A DNA stretch of 64,000 nucleotides from Streptomyces sp. SN-593 (lineage in GTDB: Bacteria > Actinomycetota > Actinomycetes > Streptomycetales > Streptomycetaceae). The number at the start of each line of letters is the position of its first letter. The stretch's first letter is position 1. Where the stretch lies: positions 4,067,001 through 4,131,000 of the forward strand of contig NZ_AP018365.1 in assembly GCF_016756395.1 (NCBI RefSeq), in the 5' to 3' direction. Under the pieces are notes generated by a model. That model was not told the origin of the DNA and did no database searches. It saw only the letters and a program-made list of their open reading frames with translations. Position numbers and translations under genes: made by a program. Below, in pieces: positions 31,023 through 48,299 of the stretch.

Positions 31023-31079
31023 TGTTGTCCCTTTTTTTGGTGCTTGGCGCACTGGTCTGGAAAGTCTGGAACGATCTGA

Positions 31080-32626: not shown

Positions 32627-33043
32627 GGTGAACTCCTTTTCCGGAAACGGCGTCGTGCACCGCCACGGCCTTCGTGACGGTTCGCCGGGCAATTCCACGC
32701 CCGAGCACACCGCTGCCGACCGGATCAACGACCACCCCGGTACCGAGGAAACTGGCAGACGGCCGTCGGAAAACACTATTCACCCGAATGGCCGGTAGAA
32801 CTCCCCCGCCGTGCGGAAATCCCGCGCCCCGCGACGGCCGAGCCGGCGGAGGAACCGCGCACCCGCGGGCGGGTCGGCCGGGAATGCGGCCGCCCGGCCG
32901 GCCCGGAAATCGGCCGTCCGCCGAATTCCCGGGCCGCGCCGGGAGGGTACGGCGACGGCCCCGGTCCGCCCGACGGGGACGTCGGGGGCCGGGGCCGTGC
33001 GCAGCGGACAGGGCCGGGCGGTGCCGGCCGACTGCCGGCCTGG
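32627..33043. other. 417-bp gap between rodlin and short chaplin
   Basis: The left part is the chaplin promoter region. The right part holds the terminator of the right rodlin (32955-32998: ACGGCCCCGG paired with CCGGGGCCGT, enclosing CCCGAC/GTCGGG). Between them is Pro/Arg-codon-like GC-rich sequence with no supported gene. Confidence 0.65.
32955..32998 (-). terminator. Terminator after the right rodlin
   Basis: An outer 10-bp stem (ACGGCCCCGG / CCGGGGCCGT) encloses an inner 6-bp stem (CCCGAC / GTCGGG), starting about 45 bp after the rodlin stop. Confidence 0.75.
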
Positions 33044-33454
33044 TCAGTGGTTGGCCGTGCCGTTGCCGGAAAGGATCGGCAGGTCCTCGAGGATGTGCGA
33101 GAGCGGCTCGTCGCCCTGGGACTGGGTCGAGTTCTCGGTGCACTGCTGGTTCTGCGGCGACGTCAGGACGTTGAGGTCCTGGATGCTGATCGGCACGACG
33201 CCGACGAGCGAGCCGAGGTTCGCCTTGGCCGGCAGGGCGATGCAGGGCTTGTTGAGCGAACCCTGGATCAGCGCGAACGACGGGCTCATCACACCGCTGG
33301 TGTAGGTGTTGCCGTAGTTCTGCTCGGAGCCGTTGCCGTTGGCGGTGGTGGTGCCCTGGTCGTCGCCGATGGCCATCGCGCCGGGGGCGACCGTCGCGGA
33401 GACACCCGCGAGCGAGGCCGCGACGGCGGCCGTGGCGAGGATCTTCTTGATCAC
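33044..33454 (-). CDS. Rodlin (rodlet-layer protein), second copy
   Basis: 136 residues, same architecture as the other rodlin: signal peptide (MIKKILATAAVAASLAG..., cleavage near AMA-IG), then NGNGSEQNYGNTYTSGV, SPSFALIQGSLNKPCIA and [20 protein letters not shown]. Both cysteines are kept. In S. coelicolor rdlA and rdlB are divergent neighbours; here both point the same way and three other surface genes separate them. A sigma-BldN-like promoter lies upstream. Confidence 0.95.
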   Translation of the reverse strand: MIKKILATAAVAASLAGVSATVAPGAMAIGDDQGTTTANGNGSEQNYGNTYTSGVMSPSFALIQGSLNKPCIALPAKANLGSLVGVVPISIQDLNVLTSPQNQQCTENSTQSQGDEPLSHILEDLPILSGNGTANH

Positions 33455-33533: not shown

Positions 33534-33913
33534 AACGTTCACCCGAACGGATAGCCCCGCGCCCCCGTGAGGGACGCATTCCCCCACACGAGTGATTGAC
33601 GAACCGCGCCTCCGATGCGTCGTCGCACGGGCGAAATCCGATGGTCATAAGAAACGGCCAGCTCAGAGGGACTCCCGGCGCCGCCGCGCGTCCTGCGCGG
33701 GTTACCCGGGGTCGTCTGCCACCGTGCTGGGGGAATTCATAGGGATTACCTGACAGGCACGGTATTCGTTGAGTGCACGCGGTCGGTTGATCAAGGTCGG
33801 TCGACCACGGTCGATCCAGCGTTCCGGACGATCCGCCGGAGCAGGTCGCCGGGCCGCGGGCACCGACCGGACTCCGGACTTCTCCGGGTCCCGGAGAGAG
33901 GGAACGGCGCGCG
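33534..33913. other. Divergent intergenic region before the exopolysaccharide operon
   Basis: 380 bp, noticeably less GC-rich than the genes around it (for example TAAGAAACGGCCAGC, AATTCATAGGGATTACC), as expected of a promoter region. It must contain the promoter of the eight-gene operon, but I cannot place one with confidence. GGTTGATCAAGGTCGGTCGACC at 33783-33804 contains overlapping short inverted repeats. No gene is supported. Confidence 0.6.
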
Positions 33914-35161
33914 ATGCCGCAAGACCATGAGGACGAGGTCCCGCCGACGACCGGAGCCGCGGCGACCGCGGCCGCCGGGGGCGTCCGGCTCGACGGGCTG
34001 ACGGTGCTGCACGTCGCGCAGCCGGTGGACGGCGGGGTGGCCCGCGTCGTCGCCGACCTGGCGCGTGCCCAGACGGCGTGCGGCGCGCGGGTCGTGGTGG
34101 CCTGCCCGCCCGGAGGCGACCTCGGTCCGGCCGCGGTTGCCGCCGGCGCCGAGGTGGCGGCCTGGCCGGCCCGCCGCTCGCCCGGGCCCTCGCTGCCCGC
34201 CGAGGTGCGGTCGCTGGCCCGGGTGCTGCGCGAGGTCGGCCCCGGTCTGCTGCACCTGCACAGTTCCAAGGCCGGCCTGGCCGGCCGGCTGGCCGCCCGG
34301 GGCCGCGTCCCCACCGTCTTCCAGCCGCACGCCTGGTCCTACGACGCGGTGTCCGGCCCGACCGCGTGGGCGGTGCTGCGCTGGGAACGCGCCGCCGCGC
34401 GCTGGGCGCACCGCGTGCTGTGCGTCAGCGCCGCCGAACGGGAGTCCGGGGTGCGGCACGGCGTGCGCGCCCGCTGGGCCGTGGTGCCCAACGGCATCGA
34501 CACCGACCGCTTCCGGCCGCCGCTGCGCCGCGCCTCCGCGCGCGAGACGCTGCCGGCGCTCGCCGGACTCGACGCCGACGCGCCCGTGGTGGTCTGCGTC
34601 GGGCGGCTGTGCCCGCAGAAGGGGCAGGACGTCCTGCTGCGGGCGTGGCCCGAGGTGAGCGCGCGGCTGCCCGCCGCCCGGCTGGTGCTGGTCGGCGACG
34701 GGCCGGACCGGTCGCGCCTTGCGGCCGGCGCGCCCCCCGGCGTCCTGTTCGCCGGAGCGGCCGCCGACCCGCTGCCCTGGTACCAGGCGGCCGACGTGGT
34801 GGTGCAGCCCTCCCGCTGGGAGGGGATGGCGCTCGCGCCCCTGGAGGCGATGGCGTGCGCGCGTCCGGTGGTGCTCGGCGACGTCGGCGGCGCCCGGGAA
34901 TGCGTGCCGGACGCCGACACGGAGCTGTGCGTGGTGCCGCCCGACGCGCCGGAGGCTCTGGCGGCCGCGCTGCTGCGGCTGCTCTGCGACCCTGCGGCGC
35001 GGACCGCCGCGGGCCTGCGCGCGCTGTCCCACGTGCGCGCGCGGCACGACGTGCGCGCCGCCGCCGCGGCCGTCGGCGCGCTCTACGGCACCCTCGTGCC
35101 GCACCTGGCACCGCGGCCCCCGGCCCGGCCCGAGCACGAGGTCGAGGTGCCCGCCCGGTGA
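33914..35161 (+). CDS. GT4-family glycosyltransferase, first gene of the exopolysaccharide operon
   Basis: 415 residues, two Rossmann-like halves of the GT-B fold. The N-terminal part has VLHVAQPVDGGVARVVADLA; the C-terminal part has VVCVGRLCPQKGQDVLLRAW, the VLVGDGPDRSRL strand and the donor-binding PSRWEGMALAPLEAMAC (E-x7-E). It would add a sugar to a lipid-linked intermediate on the cytoplasmic face. It opens the operon; its stop overlaps the next GTG (GTGA). The first 22 residues are disordered. Sugar specificity cannot be read. Confidence 0.9.
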   Translation: MPQDHEDEVPPTTGAAATAAAGGVRLDGLTVLHVAQPVDGGVARVVADLARAQTACGARVVVACPPGGDLGPAAVAAGAEVAAWPARRSPGPSLPAEVRSLARVLREVGPGLLHLHSSKAGLAGRLAARGRVPTVFQPHAWSYDAVSGPTAWAVLRWERAAARWAHRVLCVSAAERESGVRHGVRARWAVVPNGIDTDRFRPPLRRASARETLPALAGLDADAPVVVCVGRLCPQKGQDVLLRAWPEVSARLPAARLVLVGDGPDRSRLAAGAPPGVLFAGAAADPLPWYQAADVVVQPSRWEGMALAPLEAMACARPVVLGDVGGARECVPDADTELCVVPPDAPEALAAALLRLLCDPAARTAAGLRALSHVRARHDVRAAAAAVGALYGTLVPHLAPRPPARPEHEVEVPAR

Positions 35162-37452
35162 ACCGCGTGAACCGCTCCTCGCTCCCCGGCCGCCCCGCCG
35201 CCCGCGACGCCGCCGCCCCGCCGCCCTGGCCCGAGACCGGCCTGCCGCCGTACGGTGACGCGGCCTACGGCGACGCCGCGTACGGCGAGACGGCCTACGA
35301 CGACGCGACCCGCCTGGGCCCCCGCGGCGACACCGCCCGCACCGGACCGGCCCGCGGCACCCCGACGTACGGCGGGCCCGCCTACGACCACACCGACGAC
35401 GACAGACCGAGACGCGGCGGCCCCTCCCGCGCCACCACCGCACCGGACACCACCGGGCAGGGCGCCGCCACCCACCCCGACCCGTACACCGACACCCGCC
35501 ACACCACACCCACCCGCAGCGCCCCCTCCCGTACCGCCACCGCACCGGACACCGCCGGGCAGAGCGCCGCCACCCACCCCGACCCGTACACCGACACCCG
35601 CCGCACCACACCCACCCGCAGCGCCCCCTCCCACGCCACCACCGCACCGGACACCGATGGGTACGGCACGGGGCGCGGCCTGGCGGCGGGCCGGACGGCG
35701 ACGGACCCGGGACCGCGGCAGGCCGCGGCGGCGCAGGGGCCCGCCGCGGACGCCGGTCTGCGGGTCGTGGTGCCGCAGCCCCAGGCACGACCGGCGAGTG
35801 CCGGGTCCCCGCGGAAGGCGGTGCCCGGACGGCACCCCGTCCCCGGCCGCCGCGGGGACCGGCAGGAGGCGGCGCCCCGCGCGTCCGGGGCCGGCCGGCG
35901 GCTGTCCCCCGGCGGCGTGCTCGTCGCGGCGGACTGCCTGGCCGGTCTGGTCGGACTGTGCGCGGTCGGCCCCGCCGGGGCGCCCGTGCTGCCCGCGGTG
36001 CTGCTGTGCGTGCTGCTCGCCGCCCACCGAAGAGCCGGCCTGTACCGGCCCGGGCTCGCGCCGGCCGCGCTGGAGGAGGTCCCCGCCATCGCGCTGGGCA
36101 CGGTGCTCGCCTGGGGACTGGCCGCCGCCGCGGGCGCGGCCACCGAGCGGCACGGCGCGCTCGGCTGGTCCGAACTCCTCGACGCCACCGCGCTCACCGG
36201 CGCCACCGCCCTCGCCCTGCGCGCGTTCGCGCACCGCCTGCACCGCTCCCGCGCCCGCCGCGCCCCGGCCCGGACCCTCGTGGTCGGCGCCGCCCCCGGC
36301 GCCGACCACCTGGCGGCCGCGCTGCGCGAGCACCCCGAGTACGGCCTCGCCCCGGTGGCCGTCGCCACCGCACCCCACCCCCACGGCCCGGCCGGACCCG
36401 ACCCGGTCGGCACGGCGTTCGCCGCTCCCGCCCCCGCACTCCCCCTGGACCAGGGCGCGTGCACGCCGTCCGCCGACGCCGCCGCCCCGGACCGGCTCCC
36501 CGCGCCGCCCTCCCAGGGCCGCGCCCCCGTCCACGGCGCGCTCGACGCGGCCGGCCCCGCCTCCCGCCCGCCCGCACCGCAGGCGCCCGGCGCCGCTCCC
36601 GCGCCGGTCCCCCGTCTCACCGTGACCGCCGCCGCGGACATCGCCCGGGCCGCGGTGCGCGACGCGGTACGCCACGTGGTGGTCGTCGGACCGGCCGGAC
36701 CCGCCGCGTCGGCGGCCGCGGAGCTGCTGGCCGCGCGGGGCTGCCGGATCTGGCAGGTGGACCCGGAAGGGCAGCGGCCCGGCGGCGGCCCGGACGGCAC
36801 CGGGCGGCCCGGCCGGCTCGGGCCCGGGCACCTGTGGGGCCACCCCTACCGGCCGTTCACCGACCTGCCGCACAGGTCACCGCACGGCAAGCGGCTGCTG
36901 GACGTGGTGCTCGCCGGTCTGGCGCTGGCCGCCGCCGCCCCGGTGCTGGCCGGCTGCGCGCTGGCCGTACGCCTCGCGGACGGGCCGGGCGTGCTGTTCC
37001 GGCAGGAGCGGATCGGCCTGGGCGGGCGGCCGTTCACCCTGCTGAAGTTCCGCACGATGCGCCCCGCCGACGACCACGAGTCCGCGACCTTGTGGAGCAT
37101 CGCCCACGACGACCGCACCAGCGCGGTCGGCCGGCTGCTGCGCCGCACCTCGCTCGACGAGCTCCCGCAGCTCTGGAACGTGCTGCGCGGCGACATGAGC
37201 ATGGTCGGCCCGCGCCCCGAACGCCCCTTCTACGTCCAGAAGTTCAGCGCCGAGCTGCCCGGCTACCGGGACCGGCACCGGATGCCCGCGGGCATCACCG
37301 GCCTCGCCCAGGTCAGCGGCCTGCGCGGCGACACCTCCATCCCGGACCGGGCCAGGTTCGACAACCACTACATCGAGAGCTGGTCGCTGTGGCAGGACGT
37401 GGCGATCATCGTCCGCACCGCGACCTCGTTCTTCCGGTTCGGCGGTAGCTGA
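35158..37452 (+). CDS. Polyprenyl-phosphate sugar-1-phosphate transferase (WcaJ/WbaP type)
   Basis: 764 residues, far longer than the usual 450-500. The C-terminal ~200 residues are the bacterial sugar transferase domain: KRLLDVVLAGLALAAAAPVL, FRQERIGLGGRPFTLLKFRTM, RRTSLDELPQLWNVLRGDMS and MVGPRPERPFYV. The middle has four membrane helices and a CoA_binding_3-like domain interrupted by a Pro/Ala-rich stretch. The first ~230 residues are disordered and include two to three ~34-residue repeats. It places the first sugar phosphate on undecaprenyl phosphate, starting the repeat unit. GTG 35158 overlaps the preceding stop; a later start near residue 240 cannot be excluded. One base (TGATG) is shared with the next gene. 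Confidence 0.9.
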   Translation: MNRVNRSSLPGRPAARDAAAPPPWPETGLPPYGDAAYGDAAYGETAYDDATRLGPRGDTARTGPARGTPTYGGPAYDHTDDDRPRRGGPSRATTAPDTTGQGAATHPDPYTDTRHTTPTRSAPSRTATAPDTAGQSAATHPDPYTDTRRTTPTRSAPSHATTAPDTDGYGTGRGLAAGRTATDPGPRQAAAAQGPAADAGLRVVVPQPQARPASAGSPRKAVPGRHPVPGRRGDRQEAAPRASGAGRRLSPGGVLVAADCLAGLVGLCAVGPAGAPVLPAVLLCVLLAAHRRAGLYRPGLAPAALEEVPAIALGTVLAWGLAAAAGAATERHGALGWSELLDATALTGATALALRAFAHRLHRSRARRAPARTLVVGAAPGADHLAAALREHPEYGLAPVAVATAPHPHGPAGPDPVGTAFAAPAPALPLDQGACTPSADAAAPDRLPAPPSQGRAPVHGALDAAGPASRPPAPQAPGAAPAPVPRLTVTAAADIARAAVRDAVRHVVVVGPAGPAASAAAELLAARGCRIWQVDPEGQRPGGGPDGTGRPGRLGPGHLWGHPYRPFTDLPHRSPHGKRLLDVVLAGLALAAAAPVLAGCALAVRLADGPGVLFRQERIGLGGRPFTLLKFRTMRPADDHESATLWSIAHDDRTSAVGRLLRRTSLDELPQLWNVLRGDMSMVGPRPERPFYVQKFSAELPGYRDRHRMPAGITGLAQVSGLRGDTSIPDRARFDNHYIESWSLWQDVAIIVRTATSFFRFGGS
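35430..35650 (+). repeat. ~102-bp tandem repeat in the sugar transferase gene
   Basis: Two full units and a partial third encode ATTAPDTTGQGAATHPDPY, TDTRHTTPTRSAPSR and their near-copies. Unit DNA is highly alike (CACCCCGACCCGTACACCGA occurs in both), so the duplication is recent, and the frame is preserved. Confidence 0.85.
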
Positions 37453-39041
37453 TGACCCTGACCCTCGCCCCGCCCGGCCGCACCGGCCGGGACCGGGCCG
37501 CCGCGCCGGAGCCGGCGCTCCGCCGCCTCGCCCGGTACGCGCACCTGCTGCCCGCGCTCGCCACCATCGCGCTGCTGGCCGCGCCCGTCGCCCCGGGCGA
37601 CGTCAGCGCCTCGGGCAAGGTCACCCCGGCCGACGCGGCCAGCGCCGTACTCGTGCTCGCCTGCGCCGTACGCCTGGTGCGCGAGCGGCGGCGGCCGCTC
37701 AGCGCGGCCGCCGCCCTCGTCCTGGGCGCGCCCCTCGTCGGCTTCGCGCTCGCCGCGGTCACCTCGCCCGACCCGGGCGCGTCGGCCACCGGGTTCGTGC
37801 GCTACGCCCAGGTGTTCGTGCTCGTGCCCGCCGCCCTGGTCCTCCTGCTGCGCGACCGGCGGGACTTCGCGGTCGTCGCGGGCGCGGTGGTGGCCCTCGC
37901 GCTGGTCCAGGGCGGGGTCGGGGTGTGGCAGTACGCCACCGCGACCGGCGCCTCGTACCAGGGCGAGGACGTCCGGGCGGTCGGCACCTTCGGGCCCTCG
38001 GACATCATGGGCATGGCCACGGTCGTCGCCTACGGCCTGGTCATCGCGGCCGGGTACGCGCTCGCGCCCGGCCGCCGCGCGGTCCGCACCGGGGCCGCGG
38101 TGTGCGCGGTGCTGCTGCTGGTGCCGCTCACCGTCTCCTTCAGCCGCGGCACCTGGATCGCCACCGCGCTCGCGCTCGCCGTGGTGGCGCTGCTCGCCGG
38201 GTGGCGCCAGGCGCTCCGGATCCTCGCGGTGCTCGCCGCGTGCGCGGTGCTGCTGGTCGGCGGGGTCGGCGCCGGCTCCCAGATGATCACCCAGCGGCTG
38301 GCGAGCATCACCCAGGTCACCGACGCGCCCGACCAGTCCGTGACGGACCGCTACACCCTCTGGTCGGCGGCGCTGTCCATGTGGCGCGAGCATCCCGCCA
38401 CCGGTGTCGGGCTCAAGCGCTTCCCCGACGAGCGGGACTCCCACGCCTCCCTCGCCCTCGACTCCGGCAGCGACACCGCGGGGGCCGGGCAGACCTTCAC
38501 CCGCGAACCCCTGCTGTCCCCGCACAACATGTACCTGCTCGCGCTGTCCGAGCAGGGGCTGGTCGGCTGCGGCCTGCTCGCCGGCTCCTGGGCGGCCCTC
38601 CTCGCCGTCGGCGCCGCACGGCTGCACCGCGCCCGCCGCGCCGCCCTCGGGCAGCGCGTACCGGCCCCGCGCGACGGCGCCGCCGCGGACATGAGCGGCA
38701 GCGCGGGACTGCCCGGCGGCGCGGGTGCCCGCACCGCCGGGGCGGGTGGAGACCTCGGCGGCCGATCCGCCGCCACCGGCGGCCCCCAGGCGCGCGCCAC
38801 GGAACCTGCCGCCCGCGCCACGGAACCCGCCGCCCGCGCCACGAAGCCCGCCACCGGCTCCGCCGTCCTCGCCGCCCGCACCGCCGTCGCCCCCGGTCTC
38901 GCCGCCGTCGGGCTCCTGGTGTGGCAGGCCGTCGACTTCCTCTACGCCGACATCGGCGGCCCCTCGACCCCGCTCACCGCGGTCCTCCTCGGCCTGACCG
39001 GCTGGTGGGCCCTGAACTCCACCGACGAGCCCGCCCGATGA
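37452..39041 (+). CDS. O-antigen ligase/polymerase-like membrane protein (Wzy-like)
   Basis: 529 residues with about eleven membrane segments and the Wzy_C/WaaL pattern: a central PLTVSFSRGTWIATALAL followed by a large extracytoplasmic loop with REHPATGVGLKRFPDE and SPHNMYLLALSEQGLVG, which contains the conserved His-Asn pair. It probably polymerises lipid-linked repeat units outside the membrane. A 15-30 residue repeat (RATEPAA, three copies) forms a cytoplasmic loop near residues 455-475. ATG 37452 overlaps the preceding stop by one base and its stop overlaps the flippase ATG. Confidence 0.87.
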   Translation: MTLTLAPPGRTGRDRAAAPEPALRRLARYAHLLPALATIALLAAPVAPGDVSASGKVTPADAASAVLVLACAVRLVRERRRPLSAAAALVLGAPLVGFALAAVTSPDPGASATGFVRYAQVFVLVPAALVLLLRDRRDFAVVAGAVVALALVQGGVGVWQYATATGASYQGEDVRAVGTFGPSDIMGMATVVAYGLVIAAGYALAPGRRAVRTGAAVCAVLLLVPLTVSFSRGTWIATALALAVVALLAGWRQALRILAVLAACAVLLVGGVGAGSQMITQRLASITQVTDAPDQSVTDRYTLWSAALSMWREHPATGVGLKRFPDERDSHASLALDSGSDTAGAGQTFTREPLLSPHNMYLLALSEQGLVGCGLLAGSWAALLAVGAARLHRARRAALGQRVPAPRDGAAADMSGSAGLPGGAGARTAGAGGDLGGRSAATGGPQARATEPAARATEPAARATKPATGSAVLAARTAVAPGLAAVGLLVWQAVDFLYADIGGPSTPLTAVLLGLTGWWALNSTDEPAR

Positions 39042-40813
39042 CCGGGCAGCCCCCCGGCGCGGAGCCGACCGCCTCCTGGCGCGCGCGGCCGCGCGGGACG
39101 GCCGGGGGCCTGCCGCGGGAGGTCTGGACCCATCCGGCCGACGACCCCCGAACCGACGCGCGCCCGGCGCCGCCGCCGCCGGCCGCCCCCGAGCCCCCGG
39201 ACGTGTGGGCGCCGCACCCCGACCCGATCGACCTGCCGCCGCCCCGCCCGCACACCCCGGCCCGGGGCCCGGCCCCCGCCTCGGCCCCGGTGTCCCGCGA
39301 GCCCTCCTCCCGGATGGCCCACGCCGCCGCGGCCACCGCCGGGCTCAGCATCGCGGGCTCCGTCCTCGGCCTCGTCCGCGACCAGGGCATCGCCCACTTC
39401 TTCGGCGCGGGCGCGGAGTCCGACGCCTTCCTCGTCGCGTGGACGATCCCCGAGATCGCGGCGACCGTGCTGATCGAGGACGCGATGGCGCTGCTGATGG
39501 TGCCGGCCTTCAGCGCGGCGCTGGCCCGGGGCGAGGGCCCGCGCGCCCTGGTCCGCGGCACCCTGCCGCGGCTGCTGGCCGCCCTGGCGCTGCTGACCGC
39601 GGCGCTGGCCGCGGGCGCCGGCGGGGTCGTCCGCGTCCTCGCCCCCGGCATCGCCGATCCGGCCACCGCGGCGGCCTGCACCCGGCTGACCGCGCTGACC
39701 GTCCTCACCTTCGGCGTCGCCGGCTACCTCAGCGCCGGACTGCGCGCGCACCGCCGCTTCGCCGCTCCCGCCGCGATCTACGCGGCGTACAACACCGGCA
39801 TCGTGGCGGTGCTGTTCACCCTGCACGGCAGGTTCGGTGTCCGGGCGGCCGCCGCCGGCGTCGCGGTCGGCGGGGTGCTGATGATCACGACCCAACTCCC
39901 GTCCTTCCGGCGGGTTTTGAAATCCTCGCCGGCCCGGTCCGCCGGCCCGCGCCGGGGCAACCCGCTGCGCCTGGCGCTGCTCGCGCCGGTCGTCGTGTTC
40001 ACCCTGGGCCGGCAGGCGCAGGTGCTGGTCGAGCGGTTCTTCGCCGCCCCGCTGCCCGCGGGCGCCATCTCGCACCTCAACTACGCGGAGAAGGTCGCCC
40101 AGTTGCCGATGGCGCTGTCGGTGATGATCGTGACGGTCACCTTCCCGGTGCTGTCGCGGGCGCTGGCCGACGGCGACCGCGAGCAGGCCAGGCGCCGGGT
40201 CGAGCGCGACCTCGCGCTCGCCTGCCTGGTGGTACTGCTCGGCACCTCCTACGTCATCGCGTGCGCCCCGCAGATCATCGAAGTCCTCTTCCAACGGGGC
40301 GAGTTCACCGCCGTGGACACCGCGGACACCGCGACCGTGATGCGGGTCTACGCACTCGGCCTGCTCGGCCAGAGCCTGGTCGGCGCCTTGGTCCGGCCCT
40401 ACTTCTCGGCGGCGGGGCCGACCTGGTACCCGGCCGCCGCGATGGGGTGCGGCCTGGTGGTCACCGCCGTCGCGGACGCGGCCGCCGTCGGCCCGTGGGG
40501 CGCGTACGGCATCGCGGCGGGCAACGCGCTCGGCATCACCGTGACCGCCGCGCTGCTGCTGCGCGGCCTGGGCGCGCACACCGTCGCCGTCCGGGTCGCC
40601 GCGGTGGCACCCCGGATCGGGCGGATCGCGCTGGCCGCGCTGTGCGCCACCGCCGCCGGCTGGGTGCTCGCGCACCGCCTCGCGGACCCGGCGGTGGCCG
40701 CCGGTGCCTGCGCGGTCGCGGTGCCCGCGGTGTTCGCCGGGGCCGCGCTCGCCGTCCGGGTGCCCGAAGTCCCCTACCTGCTCGCCACCGTCACACGGAA
40801 GGGCCGCCCATGA
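39038..40813 (+). CDS. MurJ/MviN-family lipid flippase
   Basis: 591 residues. An ~85-residue Pro-rich cytoplasmic extension precedes 13-14 membrane segments of the MOP superfamily. MurJ-like features are GLVRDQGIAHFFGAGAESDAF, the pair of charged residues in LVERFFAAPLPAGAISHLNYAEK, and FQRGEFTAVDT. The housekeeping MurJ is usually encoded near the chromosome origin beside trxB; this copy lies inside a polysaccharide operon and probably serves as the Wzx-like flippase for the undecaprenyl-linked repeat unit. ATGA overlaps at both ends. Confidence 0.9.
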   Translation: MTGQPPGAEPTASWRARPRGTAGGLPREVWTHPADDPRTDARPAPPPPAAPEPPDVWAPHPDPIDLPPPRPHTPARGPAPASAPVSREPSSRMAHAAAATAGLSIAGSVLGLVRDQGIAHFFGAGAESDAFLVAWTIPEIAATVLIEDAMALLMVPAFSAALARGEGPRALVRGTLPRLLAALALLTAALAAGAGGVVRVLAPGIADPATAAACTRLTALTVLTFGVAGYLSAGLRAHRRFAAPAAIYAAYNTGIVAVLFTLHGRFGVRAAAAGVAVGGVLMITTQLPSFRRVLKSSPARSAGPRRGNPLRLALLAPVVVFTLGRQAQVLVERFFAAPLPAGAISHLNYAEKVAQLPMALSVMIVTVTFPVLSRALADGDREQARRRVERDLALACLVVLLGTSYVIACAPQIIEVLFQRGEFTAVDTADTATVMRVYALGLLGQSLVGALVRPYFSAAGPTWYPAAAMGCGLVVTAVADAAAVGPWGAYGIAAGNALGITVTAALLLRGLGAHTVAVRVAAVAPRIGRIALAALCATAAGWVLAHRLADPAVAAGACAVAVPAVFAGAALAVRVPEVPYLLATVTRKGRP

Positions 40814-41679
40814 CCAGACCGATGACCACGGCAAGGACCTCCGACCTCCTTGCCCCCGCCGCGGACGTGGCCGCCGCGGACGTCCACGCCCGGGACCTCC
40901 ACGCCCCGGACCTCCACGCCCCGGACGTCCACGCCGGCCGCCGGGCTCCCTGGACGCTGATGTACCACTCGGTGGGCGACCGCCGCGCCGGCGACCCGTA
41001 CCAGGTCACGGTGACCCCCCAGCGACTGGCCGGGCAGTTGCGCTGGCTGCGTCGGCGCGGCCTGACCGGTGTCAGCATGCGGGAGTTGCTCGCCGCGCGC
41101 GCCCACGGCCGGGCCGCCCGGCTGGTCGGGCTGACCTTCGACGACGGGTACGCCGACTTCCTCACCGAGGCGGTGCCGCTGCTGCGCGCGCACGGCCACA
41201 CCGCCACCGTGTTCGTACTGCCCGGCCGGCTCGGCGGTACCAACGCCTGGGACCCGGAGGGCCCGCGCCGGCCGCTGCTCACCGCCGACGGCATCCGCGC
41301 CGCACACGCCGCGGGCATGGAGATCGGCTCGCACGGCCTGCTGCACCGCGACCTGACCACCCTCGACGACGCCGCGCTGGACGCCGAACTGACCGGCAGC
41401 AGGGGCCTGCTGGCGGACATCACCGGCACCGTCCCGGCCGGCTTCTGCCACCCCTACGGCGCGGTCGACCCGCGCACCGCGCTCGCCGCCCGGCGGGCCG
41501 GATACGCCTACGCCTGCGCGGTCGACCCCGGGCCGGTCGCCTGCGGCCACGCCCTGCCGCGCACCTACGTCGGCCAGGCCGACAACTCCCCCCGGCTGCA
41601 CGCCAAACGGCTGCGGCACCGGCTGCGGCGGACCGGACTCGCCGCCCTGCCCACCCTGTCCCAAGGAGGCGACGCATGA
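40810..41679 (+). CDS. Polysaccharide deacetylase (NodB-like, CE4)
   Basis: 289 residues. The NodB fold begins at about residue 45 with LMYHSVGD; the metal and catalytic motif TFDDGYADF gives the base and metal Asp, SHGLLHRDL the two metal His, and CHPYGAVD the groove motif. No signal peptide or membrane anchor is visible, so export is unclear. Residues 18-42 are a small tandem repeat (VHARDLHAPDLHAPDVHA). It would remove acetyl groups from the polymer or its precursor. ATG 40810 overlaps the flippase stop; its own stop overlaps the next ATG. Confidence 0.9.
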   Translation: MTRPMTTARTSDLLAPAADVAAADVHARDLHAPDLHAPDVHAGRRAPWTLMYHSVGDRRAGDPYQVTVTPQRLAGQLRWLRRRGLTGVSMRELLAARAHGRAARLVGLTFDDGYADFLTEAVPLLRAHGHTATVFVLPGRLGGTNAWDPEGPRRPLLTADGIRAAHAAGMEIGSHGLLHRDLTTLDDAALDAELTGSRGLLADITGTVPAGFCHPYGAVDPRTALAARRAGYAYACAVDPGPVACGHALPRTYVGQADNSPRLHAKRLRHRLRRTGLAALPTLSQGGDA

Positions 41680-43019
41680 AGGTCCTGCACGTCATCACCG
41701 GCCTCAACGTGGGCGGTGCCGAGCAGCAACTCCACCTGCTGCTGCGGCATCTGGACGCCCGGTGCGAGGTGGCCACGCTCACCGACCCCGGCCCCGTGGC
41801 CGACGCGATCCGCTCCGACGGCGTCCGCGTGCACGACCTGCGGATGGCCGGCAACCGCGACGTCGGCGTGCTCCCCCGGCTGACGGGCCTCATCCGGGCC
41901 GGCCGCTACGACGTGGTGCACACCCACCTCTACCGGGCCTGCGTCTACGGGCGGATCGCCGCGCGGCTGGCCGGGGTGCGCACCGTCGTGGCCACCGAGC
42001 ACTCGCTGGGCGCCACCCAGATCGAGGGCCGCCCGCTGCGCCTGGGCACGCGCGCCCTGTACCGGAGCACCGAGCGGCTCGGCCACGGCACCCTCGCGGT
42101 GTCCGCGACCGTCGCCGAACGGCTGGTGTACTGGGGGGTGCCGGAGGCGCGGGTGCACCTCGCGCCCAACGGCATCGAGCCCGAACGCTTCCGCTTCGAC
42201 CCCGAGGTGCGCGCCGAGGTGCGGACCCGGCTGCGCATCCCCGCGGGCGCGTACGTGGTCGGCGGGGTGGGGCGGCAGGTGCCCGGCAAGCGGTTCGACG
42301 CGCTGATCCGGGCGATCGCCGAGATCCCCGACGTGCACCTGCTGCTCGCCGGCGACGGGCCCGAACGGGTGCCGCTGCTGCGGCTCGTGCACCACCTGAA
42401 CCTCCAGCACCGGGTGCACGTCACCGACTCCGCCGGCGCGGACGTGCCCGGGCTGCTCGCCGCGATGGACCTGTTCGTCTCGGTCTCCGCCGAGGAGGCG
42501 TTCGGGCTCGCGGTGGTCGAGGCGCTGGCCGCCGGGCTGCCCGCGCTCTACACGGCCTGCCCCGCGGTGGAGGACGTGCCGGCCGAGGACGCGCCCGGCG
42601 CCTGCCGGATCGACCTGGGCGAGCTGCCCGCCGCGCTGGCCGCGGAGCACCGCGCGGGGCCGCGCCGGCTGCCCGCCCCCGCGGCCGTCGAGTACTACCA
42701 CATCGCGCGGACCGCGCAGCGCGTCATGGCCCTGTACACCCAGGCGTCCGAGCGGGAGAGCCTGCGGGAGAACCTCCGGGAGGGCCTGCGGCGCCGCCGC
42801 CGGTCCGCGGCCACCGCGATCGTGCCCCGACCGGCGCGCGCCGCCGCGCCCCGCCCGGCGTCGGCGGCCCCGCCCGCGGCCCCGCCCGCGCAGGCGGCCG
42901 CGCCGTCGTCCCGGCAGGGGGCCGTCCAGCCGCCCGCGCCGCCGGCGTCCCGGCAGGAGTCCGGGACCGTCCCCGGCGCCGCCGCCGAACCCACCACCCC
43001 GACACCCGCCCAGAAGTGA
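41676..43019 (+). CDS. GT4-family glycosyltransferase, second copy in operon
   Basis: 447 residues. GT-B fold with KVLHVITGLNVGGAEQQLH, VHTHLYRACVYGRIAA, VGRQVPGKRFDALIRA and the donor motif SVSAEEAFGLAVVEALAAG (E-x7-E). It is closer to the EpsF/WcaL type than the first gene. The last ~80 residues are a disordered Ala/Pro/Arg tail after the basic RRRRRSAAT, probably without catalytic role. It follows CCAAGGAGGCGACGC, a strong ribosome-binding site, and still overlaps the preceding stop. Confidence 0.9.
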   Translation: MKVLHVITGLNVGGAEQQLHLLLRHLDARCEVATLTDPGPVADAIRSDGVRVHDLRMAGNRDVGVLPRLTGLIRAGRYDVVHTHLYRACVYGRIAARLAGVRTVVATEHSLGATQIEGRPLRLGTRALYRSTERLGHGTLAVSATVAERLVYWGVPEARVHLAPNGIEPERFRFDPEVRAEVRTRLRIPAGAYVVGGVGRQVPGKRFDALIRAIAEIPDVHLLLAGDGPERVPLLRLVHHLNLQHRVHVTDSAGADVPGLLAAMDLFVSVSAEEAFGLAVVEALAAGLPALYTACPAVEDVPAEDAPGACRIDLGELPAALAAEHRAGPRRLPAPAAVEYYHIARTAQRVMALYTQASERESLRENLREGLRRRRRSAATAIVPRPARAAAPRPASAAPPAAPPAQAAAPSSRQGAVQPPAPPASRQESGTVPGAAAEPTTPTPAQK

Positions 43020-43756
43020 GACGCACCGTGAAGCACCCCGACGACATCAGCGACCCGCAGGACCGCGGGCGCCGCGCCCCGCGACGGCCGCTGCCGCGCT
43101 GGCTGCCGCTGCCGCTCGGCATCGGCATCGGCCTGCTCGGCGGTGTCGGGTACGGCCTGACGGCCACCCCGCAGTACACCGCGACCAGTTACGTGATGGT
43201 CGTACCGCGGCAGGGCACCGACGCGCAGACCGCGCTCGGCTTCGCCCAGGCGTACGGCCGGATCGTCACCGGCTCTGCGGTGCTGGCCGGGGCGCAGGCC
43301 GCCACCCACTCCGCCGCCGCCGACCTGAAGGGCCACGTCCAAGCGGCGACGTCGCCCGACGCCCCGATGATCTCGGTCACCGGCAGTTCGTCGGAGGCCG
43401 GCACCGCCGCCGCCGTCGCCAACGGCGTGGCCCGCTCGCTCGCCGCCGTCGGCAACCGCGACGCGGACAGCACCGGCGTACGGCTGCTGGTCTTCGCTCC
43501 CGCGGCCGCCCCCGCCGCGCCGTCCTCCCCGTCGGCGGCGCTGTCCGGTGCGGTCGGCGCGAGCGCGGGCGGGCTGCTCGGCGCGCTCACCCTGCTGGTC
43601 CGCCCCCGCCGGCAGGACGGCGCCGGGCGGCCGGACCGCGCCCAGGTCCCCGCTCCCGCCGCCTCCCCGCCGGCGTCCGAGCCGGCCGCGCCGTCGCCGG
43701 AGTCCTCGCAGGCGTCCGAGCCGGCCGCGTCCCGGCCGGAGAGGACGGCGGTGTGA
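43016..43756 (+). CDS. Wzz-like chain-length-determinant membrane protein
   Basis: 246 residues. A basic N-terminus, a first membrane helix (about 27-47) ending in YGLTATPQYTATSYVMVVP, an extracytoplasmic domain, and a second helix (about 180-200) before a Pro/Ser/Ala tail. This is the Wzz/polysaccharide co-polymerase layout, but with a short outer domain and no tyrosine-kinase part or Tyr-rich tail. It should tune polymer length with the Wzy-like protein. GTG 43016 overlaps the preceding stop; GTG 43028 is an alternative. Confidence 0.8.
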   Translation: MRRTVKHPDDISDPQDRGRRAPRRPLPRWLPLPLGIGIGLLGGVGYGLTATPQYTATSYVMVVPRQGTDAQTALGFAQAYGRIVTGSAVLAGAQAATHSAAADLKGHVQAATSPDAPMISVTGSSSEAGTAAAVANGVARSLAAVGNRDADSTGVRLLVFAPAAAPAAPSSPSAALSGAVGASAGGLLGALTLLVRPRRQDGAGRPDRAQVPAPAASPPASEPAAPSPESSQASEPAASRPERTAV

Positions 43757-45165
43757 CGGTGGAGGGCCCGAAGACCGCGGTCCCGGCCGCCGCCGGCAGC
43801 CCGCCGCGCCCCAGGACCGCACCGCGCCGCCCGTCCGGGGCCGCTTCCCCGGCCCCGGCGGGCGCGCCCGCGGCCGCGCTCGACGTGCGGATCTGCCGCG
43901 ACCCCGAGGAGTTCGCCGCGCTCGCCCCCGAGTGGACCCGGCTGCACCGCAGTTGCCCGCAGGCCACGCCGTTCCAGAGCCACGCGTGGCTGCACTCGTG
44001 GTGGCTGTCGTACGGTCGCCCTGGGCGGCTGCGGGTGGTGCTGGTCAGGCGCGGCGGGGACGGCACGCAGGGCGGCGACGGGACCGGCACGCTGGTGGGC
44101 GCGGTCGCCCTGATGCGCGTCCACCGCCCGCTGCCCGCCCTCGTGCCGCTCGGCGGTGCCGTCACGGACTACTCGGACGTGCTCATCGACCCCGCGGCCG
44201 ACGCGTACCCCGACGCCGACGCGCCCGCCCGGTCGCACAGCGCTTCCGACGGAAGGGACGAGTCGGGCGAGGGCCCTGCGGCCGACCCCGTGGGCCCGGG
44301 GAACGCGGGGAGCCGGAGGGACGCCGGGAACACGGGGAACGCGGGGAGCGCAGGGAGCGCGGGGAGCGCGTGCGGCGGACCGGTGGCGGCCGCCCTCGTC
44401 CGCGGGATGCGCCGCGCCGCCCGGGGCGGGGTCGTCGACCTGCGCGAGGTGCCCGCGGACGCCGCCGCCGAGCGGGTGTTCGCGCTGTGGCCCGGCCCCA
44501 GGCGGCGGCTGGCGGACTCGGAGTGCCTGGAACTGCCCGGCGGCCCCATGGCCGGGCTGATCGCCCGGGTCGGCAGCTCACGCGGCCAGCGCATCCGCGG
44601 CCACCTGCGCAAGATCGACGCCTCGGGCGTCGAGGAGCGTGACGTCCCCGCCGCCGAGGTACCCGACGCGATCCGCACGATACTGCGGCTGCACACCGCC
44701 CAGTGGGCGGGCCGGGGCGTCACCCCCGAGCACGTGCGCCCCCGGTTCGCCGAGCACCTCGGCCGTGCCGGGGCCGCGATGACCGCCTCCGGCGAGGCCC
44801 TGCTCACCGAGTTCCGGATCGGCGGCGAGGTGGTCGCCGCGAACCTCACCGTCCTGTCGCCGACCCTGGCCGGCGGCTACCTCTACGGCGCCGACTTCGC
44901 CGCGCTGCGCGCCGCGAAGGTGGACCTCAACACCCTCCTGATGCGGCACGGCGCCCGCCTCACCACGGCCGCCGACCGCCCGGTCCTGAGCATGCTGCGG
45001 GGCGCCGAGCCGCACAAAGCCCACTGGCGCCCGGTCCCCACGACCAACGCCCGCCTCCTGCTGGGCACCCGCCGCGCCCTGCCCTCCCTGCTGTGCCGCC
45101 AGGTCCTGGCCGCCGCCCGGTCCCGGCTGCGGGAGGTCCGCCGCCGCGCGCGGGCCGCGACCTGA
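43753..45165 (+). CDS. FemAB/BioF2-like GNAT acyltransferase
   Basis: 470 residues. The start of the domain (DPEEFAALAPEWTRLH, TPFQSHAWLHSWWLSYG) and the later EFRIGGEVVAANLTVLSPTL, GGYLYGADFAALRAAKVDLNTLLM match the Acetyltransferase_6 (CelD/BcsL-like) proteins found in polysaccharide clusters. It probably transfers an acyl or aminoacyl group to the polymer. A Gly/Asn/Ala/Ser repeat (NAGSAGSAGSA) of ~50 residues interrupts the middle (about 170-215). GTG 43753 overlaps the Wzz-like stop. Last gene of the operon, ending 22 bp from a convergent hydrolase. Confidence 0.85.
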   Translation: MTVEGPKTAVPAAAGSPPRPRTAPRRPSGAASPAPAGAPAAALDVRICRDPEEFAALAPEWTRLHRSCPQATPFQSHAWLHSWWLSYGRPGRLRVVLVRRGGDGTQGGDGTGTLVGAVALMRVHRPLPALVPLGGAVTDYSDVLIDPAADAYPDADAPARSHSASDGRDESGEGPAADPVGPGNAGSRRDAGNTGNAGSAGSAGSACGGPVAAALVRGMRRAARGGVVDLREVPADAAAERVFALWPGPRRRLADSECLELPGGPMAGLIARVGSSRGQRIRGHLRKIDASGVEERDVPAAEVPDAIRTILRLHTAQWAGRGVTPEHVRPRFAEHLGRAGAAMTASGEALLTEFRIGGEVVAANLTVLSPTLAGGYLYGADFAALRAAKVDLNTLLMRHGARLTTAADRPVLSMLRGAEPHKAHWRPVPTTNARLLLGTRRALPSLLCRQVLAAARSRLREVRRRARAAT

Positions 45166-45187
45166 CCGCCCCCGCCGCGCGCCCGCC

Positions 45188-46642
45188 TCACAAGGCGCTG
45201 GTCGGCCCCGGGGTCGGCGTCACCGTGGGCGCGGCGGAGGGCCTGGCGGACGGCGTCGCGGAAGGCCCGGCGGAGGGCGTGGCGGAAGGCGTGGCCGGGG
45301 CCGCGGGTGTGGCCGGGGCGGCGGCCCGCGGTTCGAGCCGCATGCACACCTGCCCGCTGGTGTACGACTTCTTCAGCACCTCGCTGAGCGGCATCGGCAC
45401 GCAGGTCTCGACCGGGGAGGACGTCGTCGACGTGCCGGTCCCGGGGCCGCCGGCGCCGTCGGTGCCGGTACCCGGGGCCGGTGCGGCGGGCGCGGTGCCG
45501 ACGGGCCCGGCGGTCGCCGTCCGGCGGCCGAAGAGCAGCGCCCGGTACACCTTCGACGCCTCGGGGTTCTGCGCGCACTGCAGGACGCCGTGCGGGCAGT
45601 AGTCGGTGATCGTCTGGTACAGCGGGTGGTGGGTGATGATCCAGGTGAGCATCAGGCTCATGTAGTCGGCGTCGTCGCCGTTCCTGAACAGGCCCCACTC
45701 CGGGTAGGAGATCTCCTTGCCGTGCGCGGCGGCGAAGTCCACCTGGGCCTGGAGTCCGTACGGCTCGGTGACCTGCTGGTGGAAGGTCTCGCCGGACGGC
45801 TGGTCGTAGGAGTCCATGCCGATGACGTCGACGGTGGCGTCACCGGGGTAGCACTGCGTCCAGGCGACCGCGTCCCGCCCGCGGTCGGGGGCGAAGTCGA
45901 ACCGGAAGTGCTGGCCGGGGACCGCGCGCATAGCGGTGACCACCCGGTTCCAGTACGCCTTCCAGCCTTCGGGGTCGGGGCCGCAGCGGTGGGTGTAGGT
46001 GGTGCCGTTCATCTCCCAGCCGAGCACGATCACCGTGTCGGGCACGCCGAGCCGGACCAACCGCTGGGCGAGCGCGGTGAAGTGCGCGTCGAAGGCGCCG
46101 CTCGCGCCCTGCGCGATGAGGTCGCGCACCTGGGAGTCGGGGAGTCCGCCCTCGTTGTCGGCCTGCATGGGCACGTTGAGCACGAAGAGCCGGCCCGGTT
46201 CGGCGCGGGTCCAGTCGGCCCACGGCTGGAGCAGGTCGCCGTCGCCCTCGATGCTGCCCCAGTCGTCGCCCGGCAGGTAGGTGTGGCCGACGCTCACCTG
46301 GGTGCCGCCGAGCCACGTCTGGAGCGCGGCGAGGTTCCGCACGCCTTCGGCGCCGGAATCGGTGAAGGCGCCCATCGGCGGCAGCCCGCCGTTCGCCTGC
46401 GTCACCGTGCCCGGCGTGGCGGAGGGCGCGGCCGACGCCGCGCCCCGGCCGGACCCGGTGGCGGTGTCCGTGCCCGCCGGGGAGGGCAGCGGGGCCGCGA
46501 CGGGGCTCCCGTACGCCGGCAGGTCGAGCAGCCGGCCGGCGGAGTCGTCGCCGAGGCCGGTCGCGCTCGCCCCGGACAGCAGCGCCGCGGCCGTGGCCAG
46601 CGCGATGCCCGCCCTCACCCACCAGTGGTGTCGCTCGGCCAT
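45188..46642 (-). CDS. Secreted GH26-like glycoside hydrolase
   Basis: 484 residues. Signal peptide to about residue 30, a Ser/Thr/Pro linker, then a (beta/alpha)8 domain (about 90-390). VIVLGWEMNGTTY holds the candidate acid/base Glu (GH26 H/W-E-x-N-G) and KEISYPEWGLF the candidate nucleophile Glu. A Cys-containing C-terminal part and Ala-Thr-Pro-Ser repeats follow. GH26 enzymes cut beta-mannans and related glycans. Being convergent with the exopolysaccharide operon, it may trim that polymer. ATG 46642 follows GAGGAGGGG; an upstream in-frame start lacks a site. Confidence 0.8.
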   Translation of the reverse strand: MAERHHWWVRAGIALATAAALLSGASATGLGDDSAGRLLDLPAYGSPVAAPLPSPAGTDTATGSGRGAASAAPSATPGTVTQANGGLPPMGAFTDSGAEGVRNLAALQTWLGGTQVSVGHTYLPGDDWGSIEGDGDLLQPWADWTRAEPGRLFVLNVPMQADNEGGLPDSQVRDLIAQGASGAFDAHFTALAQRLVRLGVPDTVIVLGWEMNGTTYTHRCGPDPEGWKAYWNRVVTAMRAVPGQHFRFDFAPDRGRDAVAWTQCYPGDATVDVIGMDSYDQPSGETFHQQVTEPYGLQAQVDFAAAHGKEISYPEWGLFRNGDDADYMSLMLTWIITHHPLYQTITDYCPHGVLQCAQNPEASKVYRALLFGRRTATAGPVGTAPAAPAPGTGTDGAGGPGTGTSTTSSPVETCVPMPLSEVLKKSYTSGQVCMRLEPRAAAPATPAAPATPSATPSAGPSATPSARPSAAPTVTPTPGPTSAL

Positions 46643-46973: not shown

Positions 46974-47402
46974 ATGGCGTCACGCAGGAGGGTGCTCAGG
47001 ACCGGGCTGATCAGCGCGGCCGCCGTCACGGGCACCGCGGCCGGGCTGGGCCCGATGCTCGCGGCGGACCGGTCGTCCCCGCGGGCCGCGACCGGGCCGG
47101 GCGCCGGCGGGCAGGACGCGAAGGCCGTGGCGGGCGCCGACCTGGAGGACGTGAGCCTCCCGCTGTTCGACGAGGTCTACCGGGGCCGGCACATCCAGGG
47201 CTTCACCTCGGACGACCCCAGCGGTCTGCTGCTCATGGTCGACGGGCGGCCGCTGGGCGCCATGCGGCGGTTCGACGGCAGCTACGTCAGCATGGCCAAC
47301 CACTTCCAGCCGTACCCGACGCCGCTGTCCACCGCCCGGGGCGCGGTCGACGTCATCGGGAACGCCGAACTGGGCGACGCCGCCGCCGTGCACCACCACT
47401 GA
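46974..47402 (+). CDS. melC1: Tyrosinase copper chaperone MelC1
   Basis: 142 residues. A twin-arginine signal (ASRRRVLRTG followed by a hydrophobic stretch) means the folded MelC1-MelC2 pair leaves by the Tat route. The mature part has FDEVYRGRHIQGF, LLLMVDGRPLGAMRRFDGSY and VSMANHFQPYPTPLS, matching MelC1, which loads copper into tyrosinase and supplies its export signal. It ends in His-His-His. ATG 46974 follows GAGGAGAGGAG. It is 27 bp upstream of melC2, forming the classical melC operon. Confidence 0.95.
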   Translation: MASRRRVLRTGLISAAAVTGTAAGLGPMLAADRSSPRAATGPGAGGQDAKAVAGADLEDVSLPLFDEVYRGRHIQGFTSDDPSGLLLMVDGRPLGAMRRFDGSYVSMANHFQPYPTPLSTARGAVDVIGNAELGDAAAVHHH

Positions 47403-47429
47403 CCGACCGAGCGTCGAGGGGCCGCACCT

Positions 47430-48299
47430 GTGTACACCCGGAAGAACCAGCGGAATCTGACCAGCGACCAGCGCTCACGCTTCGTGCAGGCCGTACTCCA
47501 GCTCAAGCGCCGCGGCGGGTACGACAAGTACGTCAAGCTGCACACCCAGTACTTCTCCGCCGACGGCGAGACGGGACTGCGGGTGGCGCACATGGCGCCC
47601 ACCTTCTTCCCCTGGCACCGCCAGTTCCTGCTGGTCTTCGAGCACGAACTGCGGATGATCGACCCCGACGTCAGCATCCCGTACTGGGACTGGACCGCCG
47701 ACCGGTCAACGACGTCGGCGCTGTGGGACGACGACTTCATGGGCGGCAACGGCCGCTCCAGCGACGGCCAGGTGATGACCGGCCCCTTCGCCTACGGGTC
47801 GGGCGACTGGCCGATCACCTACGGCGTCACGCGCGAGAGGTACCTGACCCGCAACATGGGCCGCCCGGACCGGCCGATCGTGCTGCCCACCGCCGCGGAG
47901 CTGAACGACGCGCTCAAGATCCCGACCTACGACACCGCGCCGTGGAACTCCGCGCCCGGCACCCAGGGGCTGCGCAACAAGATGGAGGGGTGGGTGGTCA
48001 GCGACACCAAGGGCGGCTACCTCCACAACCGGGTGCACCAGTGGGTCGGCGGCCACATGATCGGCGGGTCCTCGCCGAACGACCCGGTCTTCTGGCTGCA
48101 CCACGCCTTCATCGACCTGATCTGGACCCGCTGGCAGCGGCTGCACCCGAAGTCCGGCTTCCTGCCGGCCAAGCCGCTCAGCGCGAAGGACCCCGAGCAC
48201 GGCCGTGTGATCAGCCTCGACGAGCCGATGCCGCCCTTCCACGTGAAGCCCTCGGCGGTGCTGGACGCCCGCGGGTACTACACGTACGAGGAGGGCTGA
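47430..48299 (+). CDS. melC2: Tyrosinase MelC2
   Basis: 289 residues, slightly longer than the usual ~273. It oxidises tyrosine and DOPA to quinones, giving melanin. The CuA ligands fall at H38, H54 and H63 exactly as in the S. castaneoglobisporus enzyme; the CuB ligands are H199 and H203 (HNRVH) and H225 (WLHHA), nine positions later because of a mid-protein insertion near 105-125. No signal peptide, as expected, because MelC1 carries it. GTG 47430 gives the canonical start (M/V)YTRKNQRNLT. A long terminator follows. Confidence 0.97.
   Translation: MYTRKNQRNLTSDQRSRFVQAVLQLKRRGGYDKYVKLHTQYFSADGETGLRVAHMAPTFFPWHRQFLLVFEHELRMIDPDVSIPYWDWTADRSTTSALWDDDFMGGNGRSSDGQVMTGPFAYGSGDWPITYGVTRERYLTRNMGRPDRPIVLPTAAELNDALKIPTYDTAPWNSAPGTQGLRNKMEGWVVSDTKGGYLHNRVHQWVGGHMIGGSSPNDPVFWLHHAFIDLIWTRWQRLHPKSGFLPAKPLSAKDPEHGRVISLDEPMPPFHVKPSAVLDARGYYTYEEG

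Follow-up and report, generated by a model that had tools for sequence, protein, structure and literature searches.

In Actinoplanes missouriensis, a sporulating actinomycete, mutants lacking the whole wps-1 cluster form severely distorted sporangia and do not release their spores (PMC13390465). This cluster is the nearest described counterpart of the locus considered here, as it is likewise of the Wzx/Wzy type and includes a GH26 glycoside hydrolase; its authors state that they knew of no earlier characterized cluster of this type with such an enzyme (PMC13390465). In the same species, a developmental matrix glycan (imp, with GimA/GimB) has been attributed to a Wzx/Wzy-like cluster and is cut by secreted glycoside hydrolases, one of them encoded beside the imp cluster (PMC12691653). 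Known surface glycans of Streptomyces include those of MatAB and CslA-GlxA; a carbohydrate esterase domain is present in MatB, and the glycan made by CslA acts with chaplins in attachment and is linked to chaplin fimbriae (PMC5972031). What lies beneath the streptomycete rodlets is known only in part, and so is the way in which chaplins and rodlins are held in place. Here we describe an eight-gene operon (g1 to g8) that lies among rodlin and chaplin genes in a 64,000-nucleotide stretch, hereafter the window, of the 9.0 Mb genome of Streptomyces sp. SN-593 (4.07-4.13 Mb of contig C1, NZ_AP018365.1). The operon is real and conserved, its flippase is unusual and a hydrolase is coupled to it, and it plausibly directs the synthesis of a developmental exopolysaccharide. 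New in this analysis is a promoter-like dyad upstream of the operon, shared by few relatives, whose sequence appears to resemble those found before rodlin and chaplin genes of the window.

Organization of the Operon

The eight genes occupy positions 33914-45165 on the plus strand, and all seven junctions are overlaps (4, 1, 4, 4, 4, 4 and 4 bases from g1 to g8), so that the original prediction, made from the letters and open reading frames, was correct in the coordinates, strand, number and 1- or 4-base coupling of the genes. The span of 33914-46642 that it gave holds for the operon as far as 45165, and its remainder takes in a ninth gene, for the GH26 hydrolase, on the opposite strand. The elements are the following, in window coordinates.

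33744-33772, plus strand: promoter-like dyad GATTAC-N17-CGTTGA, part of a block common to some relatives and 170 bases before g1
33914-35161, plus strand: g1, GT4 glycosyltransferase, 415 amino acids (GT4 domain, EX7E motif)
35158-37452, plus strand: g2, polyprenyl-phosphate sugar-phosphate transferase, the initiating enzyme, 764 amino acids (PF02397, TIGR03025)
37452-39041, plus strand: g3, Wzy_C/O-antigen-ligase family membrane protein, presumed polymerase, 529 amino acids (Wzy_C)
39038-40813, plus strand: g4, MurJ-family flippase, 591 amino acids (MurJ Pfam family)
40810-41679, plus strand: g5, CE4 polysaccharide deacetylase, 289 amino acids (domain match, conserved residues)
41676-43019, plus strand: g6, GT4 glycosyltransferase, 447 amino acids (GT4 domain, EX7E motif)
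43016-43756, plus strand: g7, putative polysaccharide co-polymerase (chain length) with no kinase domain, 246 amino acids (sub-cut-off Wzz match, predicted fold)
43753-45165, plus strand: g8, GNAT-fold acyltransferase, 470 amino acids (Acetyltransf_6)
45188-46642, minus strand: convergent GH26 glycoside hydrolase, 484 amino acids (GH26 domain, predicted fold)

Third codon positions are 94-98% G+C across the operon genes, a bias typical of real genes in such organisms; a crude model of codon composition favors later starts for some of them (35917 for g2). TTA codons, which would point to bldA control, are absent from all nine genes. A scan of named genomes yielded 46 related loci, in which an overlapping start codon is available at most g1/g2 (22 of 29 loci), g3/g4 (33/39), g5/g6 (30/33) and g7/g8 (29/32) junctions. 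The overlap is less conserved at g2/g3 (14 of 40 loci, the remaining 26 having a start within 30 bases) and at g6/g7 (17 of 37, another 17 within 30 bases), and likewise at g4/g5 (8 of 41, another 30 within 30 bases). These counts leave out rows in which g1 was paired with g5 or g6 and those in which g6 was paired with g2, because they came from truncated loci, one GT4 query having matched the other GT4 gene. A defense-system reading was dropped after a PADLOC search of four of the nine genes had given no match.

Predicted Functions of the Gene Products

Gene-by-gene domain matches support the Wzx/Wzy-like logic proposed in the original prediction, the weak chain-length assignment being aided by a predicted KpsE/Wzc-like fold; to call that logic "complete" was an overstatement, since the eight genes include neither a nucleotide-sugar gene nor a Wzc-type kinase. 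The g2 product has the profile of an initiating sugar transferase, matching PF02397 (expectation value, E, of 1e-61) and scoring 306.2 bits with TIGR03025 (cut-off 295.55); the genome has one further PF02397 match, and the protein has a long N-terminus of low complexity. The closest solved relatives of g1 are mannosyltransferases of the PimB type, and a crude scan shows no membrane segment in this protein. The presumed polymerase g3 matches Wzy_C (E 4e-20), a family that holds both polymerases and ligases. Its top NCBIfam match is a putative O-glycosylation ligase, far under the cut-off (48.5 vs. 188.1 bits), and a sequence search gave no solved relative. The weakest domain call is that of g7, with Wzz at 20.7 bits against a curated cut-off of 25.5. 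Its predicted model (mean predicted local distance difference test score, pLDDT, of 81) was built on 35 sequences, including a misassigned row from locus L039 (25% identity, glycosyltransferase-like); the best fold matches are KpsE and then Wzc (E 5e-6 to 2e-4, TM-score about 0.5), and g7 by this model looks like a co-polymerase without a kinase that would act on chain length.

The presence of a MurJ-family protein in the operon is confirmed, as g4 matches the MurJ Pfam family and no other (E 4e-58). It stays under the cut-off of the MurJ equivalog TIGR01695 (223.1 vs. 235.55 bits), and in a genome-wide search with PF03023 it scored 198 bits against 368 and 361 for two other genes, with one further weak match. 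It is about 25% identical to both canonical MurJ proteins of its own genome and aligns with solved MurJ structures. Because those two stronger MurJ genes lie elsewhere in the genome, g4 may be free for another substrate. With 14.4 bits against the 300 of the Wzx-like NCBIfam model, it falls outside the Wzx polysaccharide-transport family, and by sequence it could work like Wzx without belonging to that family. The charged residues of MurJ were considered as proof of a changed substrate and dropped, because the stronger MurJ pair also differs from the solved chains in that region. Some rows of the g4 alignment (L034, for example) lack their N-termini owing to the choice of start.

For g5, a polysaccharide deacetylase domain (E 2e-24) is accompanied by residues D111, D112, H175 and H179, invariant in the 17 aligned sequences (the window and 16 of 43 relatives), which we take to be the metal-binding D-H-H and the catalytic D of CE4 enzymes. 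Its nearest solved relatives are poly-N-acetylglucosamine deacetylases. The g8 product matches Acetyltransf_6 (E 6e-17), and its sequence gave no solved relative. Neither a signal peptide nor a membrane segment was seen in g5 by a crude hydropathy scan and by eye, and the same scan showed no membrane segment in g8; these absences weigh little, because the scan also missed the segments of g7 and of the GH26 protein. In the Caulobacter holdfast, HfsH and HfsK are a soluble deacetylase and an acyltransferase acting on an exported polysaccharide, a pair like the g5 and g8 products; with the HfsH model, g5 reaches 33.8 bits, far under the cut-off of 400, and it scores higher with PgaB (68.2 bits), there too without reaching the cut-off.

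The GH26-like hydrolase expected at the operon's end is indeed encoded there (GH26 E 1e-6; PF02156 28.8 bits vs. a cut-off of 20.2). Residues E210 and E315, presumably the catalytic glutamates of GH26, are invariant in all 30 aligned sequences (the window and 29 of 32 relatives); E315 aligns with the glutamate of TEYG/TEFG in solved GH26 mannanases, and E210 lies outside that alignment. The hydrophobic helix at the start of the protein has the look of a signal peptide. In its predicted model (mean pLDDT 71, parts disordered), the barrel best matches the CtLic26 lichenase, ahead of GH26 mannanases, a fold match from which the substrate cannot be told. Since GT4 enzymes form alpha linkages and GH26 enzymes cleave beta linkages, the bond that is cut may be one made by the polymerase, which is a guess.

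Conservation and Linkage to Coat Genes

The 46 loci span Streptomyces, Actinacidiphila, Streptacidiphilus, Actinomadura, Planobispora and Planomonospora, and the four named loci with the highest flippase identity belong to Actinacidiphila, close relatives of Streptomyces. All eight genes are on one strand in 28 loci (26 in the order of the window, two with g1 at the end). The GH26 gene is found in 32 and is convergent every time; in eight loci the contig ends before it. The conservation across Streptomyces called for as a check of the original prediction was found: a whole-genome search at E up to 1e-15 showed the polymerase in 21 of 25 genus members, that of the window included, and at least 20 of these 21 have a chaplin domain within 11 kb of it on the same contig. 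The four members without a polymerase match comprise three genomes at least 99% complete and one 71% complete, and there was none in 15 genomes from other families of the order or in the one from the class. In two Kitasatospora, relatives of g5, g8 and g4 are grouped (L029:7489-11491 and L049:7744-11491) and the other operon genes were not seen in the available stretch; some neighbors were scanned, the L029 group lying near a sigma-factor gene and the L049 group near terpene synthase and P450 genes.

The operon lies in a chaplin-rodlin-melanin region, as originally predicted. Its left flank consists, in order from the operon, of a divergent rodlin, two chaplins, a gene for a small secreted protein and another rodlin, and its right flank of melC1, melC2 and one more chaplin.

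30612-31052, minus strand: second rodlin, rdlB-like
31758-32243, minus strand: long chaplin (PF03777)
32387-32632, minus strand: short chaplin (start codon inferred)
33044-33454, minus strand: rodlin, rdlA-like, divergent from the operon (CATTAC-N16-TGTTGA 79 bases before its start)
46992-48299, plus strand: melC1 and melC2 (tyrosinase co-factor and tyrosinase), adjoining the GH26 gene
48389-48673, minus strand: third chaplin, beyond melC2 (start codon inferred)

Chaplin or rodlin genes are nearby in 21 of the 22 Streptomyces and Actinacidiphila loci that have g1 and its upstream flank (L022 has none; in L015 and L021 they are found only beyond melC2), and in one of seven short or partial loci. 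The search profile was built on the chaplins and rodlins of the window itself and may miss distant ones. In three Streptomyces relatives g8 is separated from the GH26 gene by an extra rodlin-like gene (L011:16551-16970, L013:16614-17033, L044:16669-17091), the block being otherwise fixed. The small secreted-looking protein between rodlin and chaplin (31178-31528, minus strand) has no curated family match, is preceded by a CGTTTC-17-CGTTGT dyad and is present in several relatives. Farther off in the window, a protein with two F5/8 type C (galactose-binding) domains (15403-17034, plus strand) is perhaps a surface glycan-binding or -degrading enzyme, and a cobalamin riboswitch (22854-22960, minus strand) is located upstream of a cobN gene with other corrin genes near, an ordinary arrangement.

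A Promoter-Like Dyad Upstream of the Operon

A block, GGATTACCTGACAGGCACGGTATTCGTTGA, situated 170 bases before g1 is common, with few changes, to four of the six aligned gaps between rodlin and operon (those of the window, L009, L010 and L038), and L044 has a similar block. The dyad that it contains, GATTAC-17-CGTTGA, has what we take to be the form of a promoter of the extracytoplasmic function (ECF) type, and the comparison relied on a consensus assumed to be that of BldN. A second conserved block of the gap, at 33640-33652, reads GATGGTCATAAGA in the window and has the form GATNNTCATA in all six aligned gaps.

A loose pattern covering the operon and rdlA forms of the dyad occurs at 14 sites in the window and the 46 loci, vs. 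a mean of 1.3 (standard deviation 1.0, maximum 3) in 20 Markov resamplings; these counts are descriptive, because the consensus was partly chosen after the data had been seen. Five of the sites precede the operon, three precede rodlins of the rdlA type and two precede chaplins (L015 and L021), while one is in L014 and those of L018, L021 (one of its two) and L047 are elsewhere. As the window was the source of the pattern, orthologous sites represent conservation and not independent finds; the sites before chaplins in L015 and L021 do not depend on that source. The L014 site (10482-10509) is a copy of the L015 chaplin site beside melC2 with no chaplin found behind it, perhaps the remnant of a lost one. 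Within the window, CGTTAC-N15-18-CGTTGA with at most two mismatches is matched upstream of the operon and of four of six coat-region genes (rdlA, the short chaplin, the small secreted gene and the third chaplin), and of one of 49 other genes, a control set that includes the seven later operon genes. The matching control gene (50496-50759, minus strand, 87 amino acids) has a signal-like start and perhaps belongs to the same developmental set.

Sigma BldN has chaplins and rodlins among its key targets (PMC4125116). The sequence of the putative operon promoter resembles, in the window and in some relatives, those of chaplin and rodlin genes, as that of a sigma BldN regulon member might. BldM/WhiI-like sites, with at most one mismatch, are found upstream of 5 of 25 operons, vs. 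0.9% of 544 background stretches. Such a site was considered for the window's own operon and set aside, as the sole near match is situated about 85 bases upstream of rdlA and is more likely to be a site of that gene. The main text of the BldM paper names no polysaccharide or glycosyl gene, and that of the sigma E regulon paper no SCO27xx gene.

Interpretation

In the following scheme we infer the amino sugar, the location in the cell, the timing and the sigma factor, and each enzymatic step from family knowledge. Transcription would start from the dyad at 33744, probably with the sigma factor of the rodlins and chaplins, most likely sigma BldN. The g2 enzyme would load a sugar-1-phosphate onto a polyprenyl carrier, and the two GT4 enzymes g1 and g6 would lengthen it to a short repeat. 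In the cytoplasm, g5 would take off an N-acetyl group and g8 would add a different acyl group. The repeat unit would then be flipped by g4, a MurJ-family protein turned to a new use, and polymerized outside by g3, with g7 setting the chain length. The separately encoded GH26 enzyme would be secreted and would cut or trim the finished polymer, which probably contains an N-deacetylated, re-acylated amino sugar and has in this enzyme a dedicated trimming activity.

We lean, with modest assurance, towards the view that the operon makes an exopolysaccharide of the aerial hyphae or spores by a Wzx/Wzy-type route and that its expression is timed by development. The hyphal-surface role originally proposed gains indirect support from the linkage to chaplins within the genus, the shared dyad and the BldM/WhiI-like sites of five relatives, and it loses ground where coat genes or operon are missing. 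Several observations weigh against it. Coat genes were seen near the operon in none of the 17 loci of other genera (the stretches of L035, L039, L051 and L053 being short), and therefore the operon is not bound to the chaplin-rodlin coat; conversely, the coat can do without the operon, because three near-complete genus members (G001, G009 and G012) have no polymerase match and eight chaplin matches each among the matches listed. The GH26 gene was not found in 6 of the 38 loci having sequence to hold it, and it has no dyad, nor does melC1 match. The strict pattern precedes the operon in 5 of 29 upstream regions (window, L009, L010, L038 and L044), being partly present in L011 and L013 (first alignment group only), and was itself partly chosen after the sites had been seen; rdlB and the long chaplin match the dyad poorly (three and four mismatches). 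The promoter argument is weaker still because the L014 site has no chaplin and the close relatives L016 and L017 lack the block. Four of the five BldM/WhiI-like sites are those of related Streptacidiphilus, amounting together to roughly one event, and the fifth (L009) corresponds to the window site close to rdlA.

Alternatively, the product could be an exopolysaccharide or wall glycopolymer of general use in vegetative hyphae, and the proximity to chaplins would be inherited gene order with no functional link. The operons of Streptacidiphilus, Actinomadura, Planobispora and Planomonospora, mostly with the convergent GH26 gene and with no chaplins or rodlins found nearby, agree with such a product, as do the three chaplin-bearing members without polymerase and the missing strict dyad of most relatives. 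The chaplin linkage kept throughout most of the genus, the dyad common to the window and some relatives, the BldM/WhiI-like sites and the rodlin gene inserted between g8 and the GH26 gene in three loci speak against it, and we consider a vegetative product rather unlikely. If g3 were a ligase, the glycan would be attached to protein or peptidoglycan, as in protein O-glycosylation or a wall-linked glycan; the mixed nature of the Wzy_C family, the best NCBIfam match of g3, distant as it is, and its lack of a solved relative agree with this, but a chain-length protein encoded in the same operon is expected with a polymer and not with single-unit transfer, which makes a ligase improbable. Highly improbable in our view is a peptidoglycan role of the operon in which g4 would act at sporulation septa as a spare flippase of lipid II. 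The Pfam family of g4 and its alignment with solved MurJ structures would suit that role, and two of three S. coelicolor proteins of the MOP superfamily may export lipid-linked peptidoglycan precursors, according to a 2013 comparison of transporters (PMC3924187). However, g4 falls short of the MurJ equivalog, two canonical MurJ genes are present elsewhere, and it shares an operon with an initiating transferase, a Wzy protein and a chain-length protein. Returning to the developmental exopolysaccharide, its fullest version is tentative, and possible at best: an undescribed glycan layer of the aerial hypha, made under one sigma factor with rodlins and chaplins as the bed of the rodlet sheath, exported by a converted MurJ flippase and remodeled by the GH26 enzyme, perhaps at germination.

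Comparison with Known Systems

No description of the operon's product was found in the open-licence literature, and one may exist elsewhere; nor was an open-licence paper found that describes this operon under SCO2703, SCO2704 and SCO2706-SCO2715, its presumed gene numbers in S. coelicolor. SCO2713 appears in the literature as an RNA control. An ArgR study lists SCO2704 among the genes overexpressed when argR is mutated, a condition that also raises rodlins and chaplins; as this gene may or may not belong to the operon, it is not used as evidence. The 239-residue S. coelicolor protein Q9KYG0 is encoded beside a glycosyltransferase and a polysaccharide deacetylase (PMC3924187), a neighborhood that would fit g5-g6-g7.

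The Ebosin (ste) locus of Streptomyces sp. 139 is likewise an exopolysaccharide cluster with glycosyltransferases for a repeat unit, but it has 27 genes, and the text on it mentions no flippase, deacetylase or Wzy (PMC4347597). The gene sets of MatAB and CslA-GlxA are unlike the operon and are not described as Wzx/Wzy systems in the part of the source available (PMC5972031). A conserved glycan operon amid the rodlin-chaplin locus, with a similar putative promoter, is a candidate for a further sheath glycan, and in g4 a flippase of the MurJ family may, as a natural example, be acting outside peptidoglycan.

The imp cluster of A. missouriensis differs in having three GT4 and one GT2 transferases and the Alg6/Alg8-like ImpE, and the hydrolase family in its gene-map legend is GH5 (PMC12691653). 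The wps-3 cluster of the same species shares GT4, Wzx, Wzy, Wzz, polysaccharide deacetylase and acyltransferase genes with the operon; it has aminotransferase, monooxygenase and dioxygenase genes, no GH26 or initiating sugar transferase is listed for it in the excerpt, and its deletion gave no phenotype (PMC13390465). Unlike the operon, wps-1 has GT2 and GT26 transferases, two sulfotransferases, a methyltransferase and a kinase-like protein; its flippase has a polysaccharide biosynthesis/transport domain, and as described in that excerpt it has neither a deacetylase nor a GT4 pair. Because the gene sets differ, the operon is not the same cluster as wps-1, which by analogy serves as a precedent for a GH26-containing Wzx/Wzy cluster in development. 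To wps-1 the operon adds another GH26-coupled polysaccharide cluster in sporulating actinomycetes.

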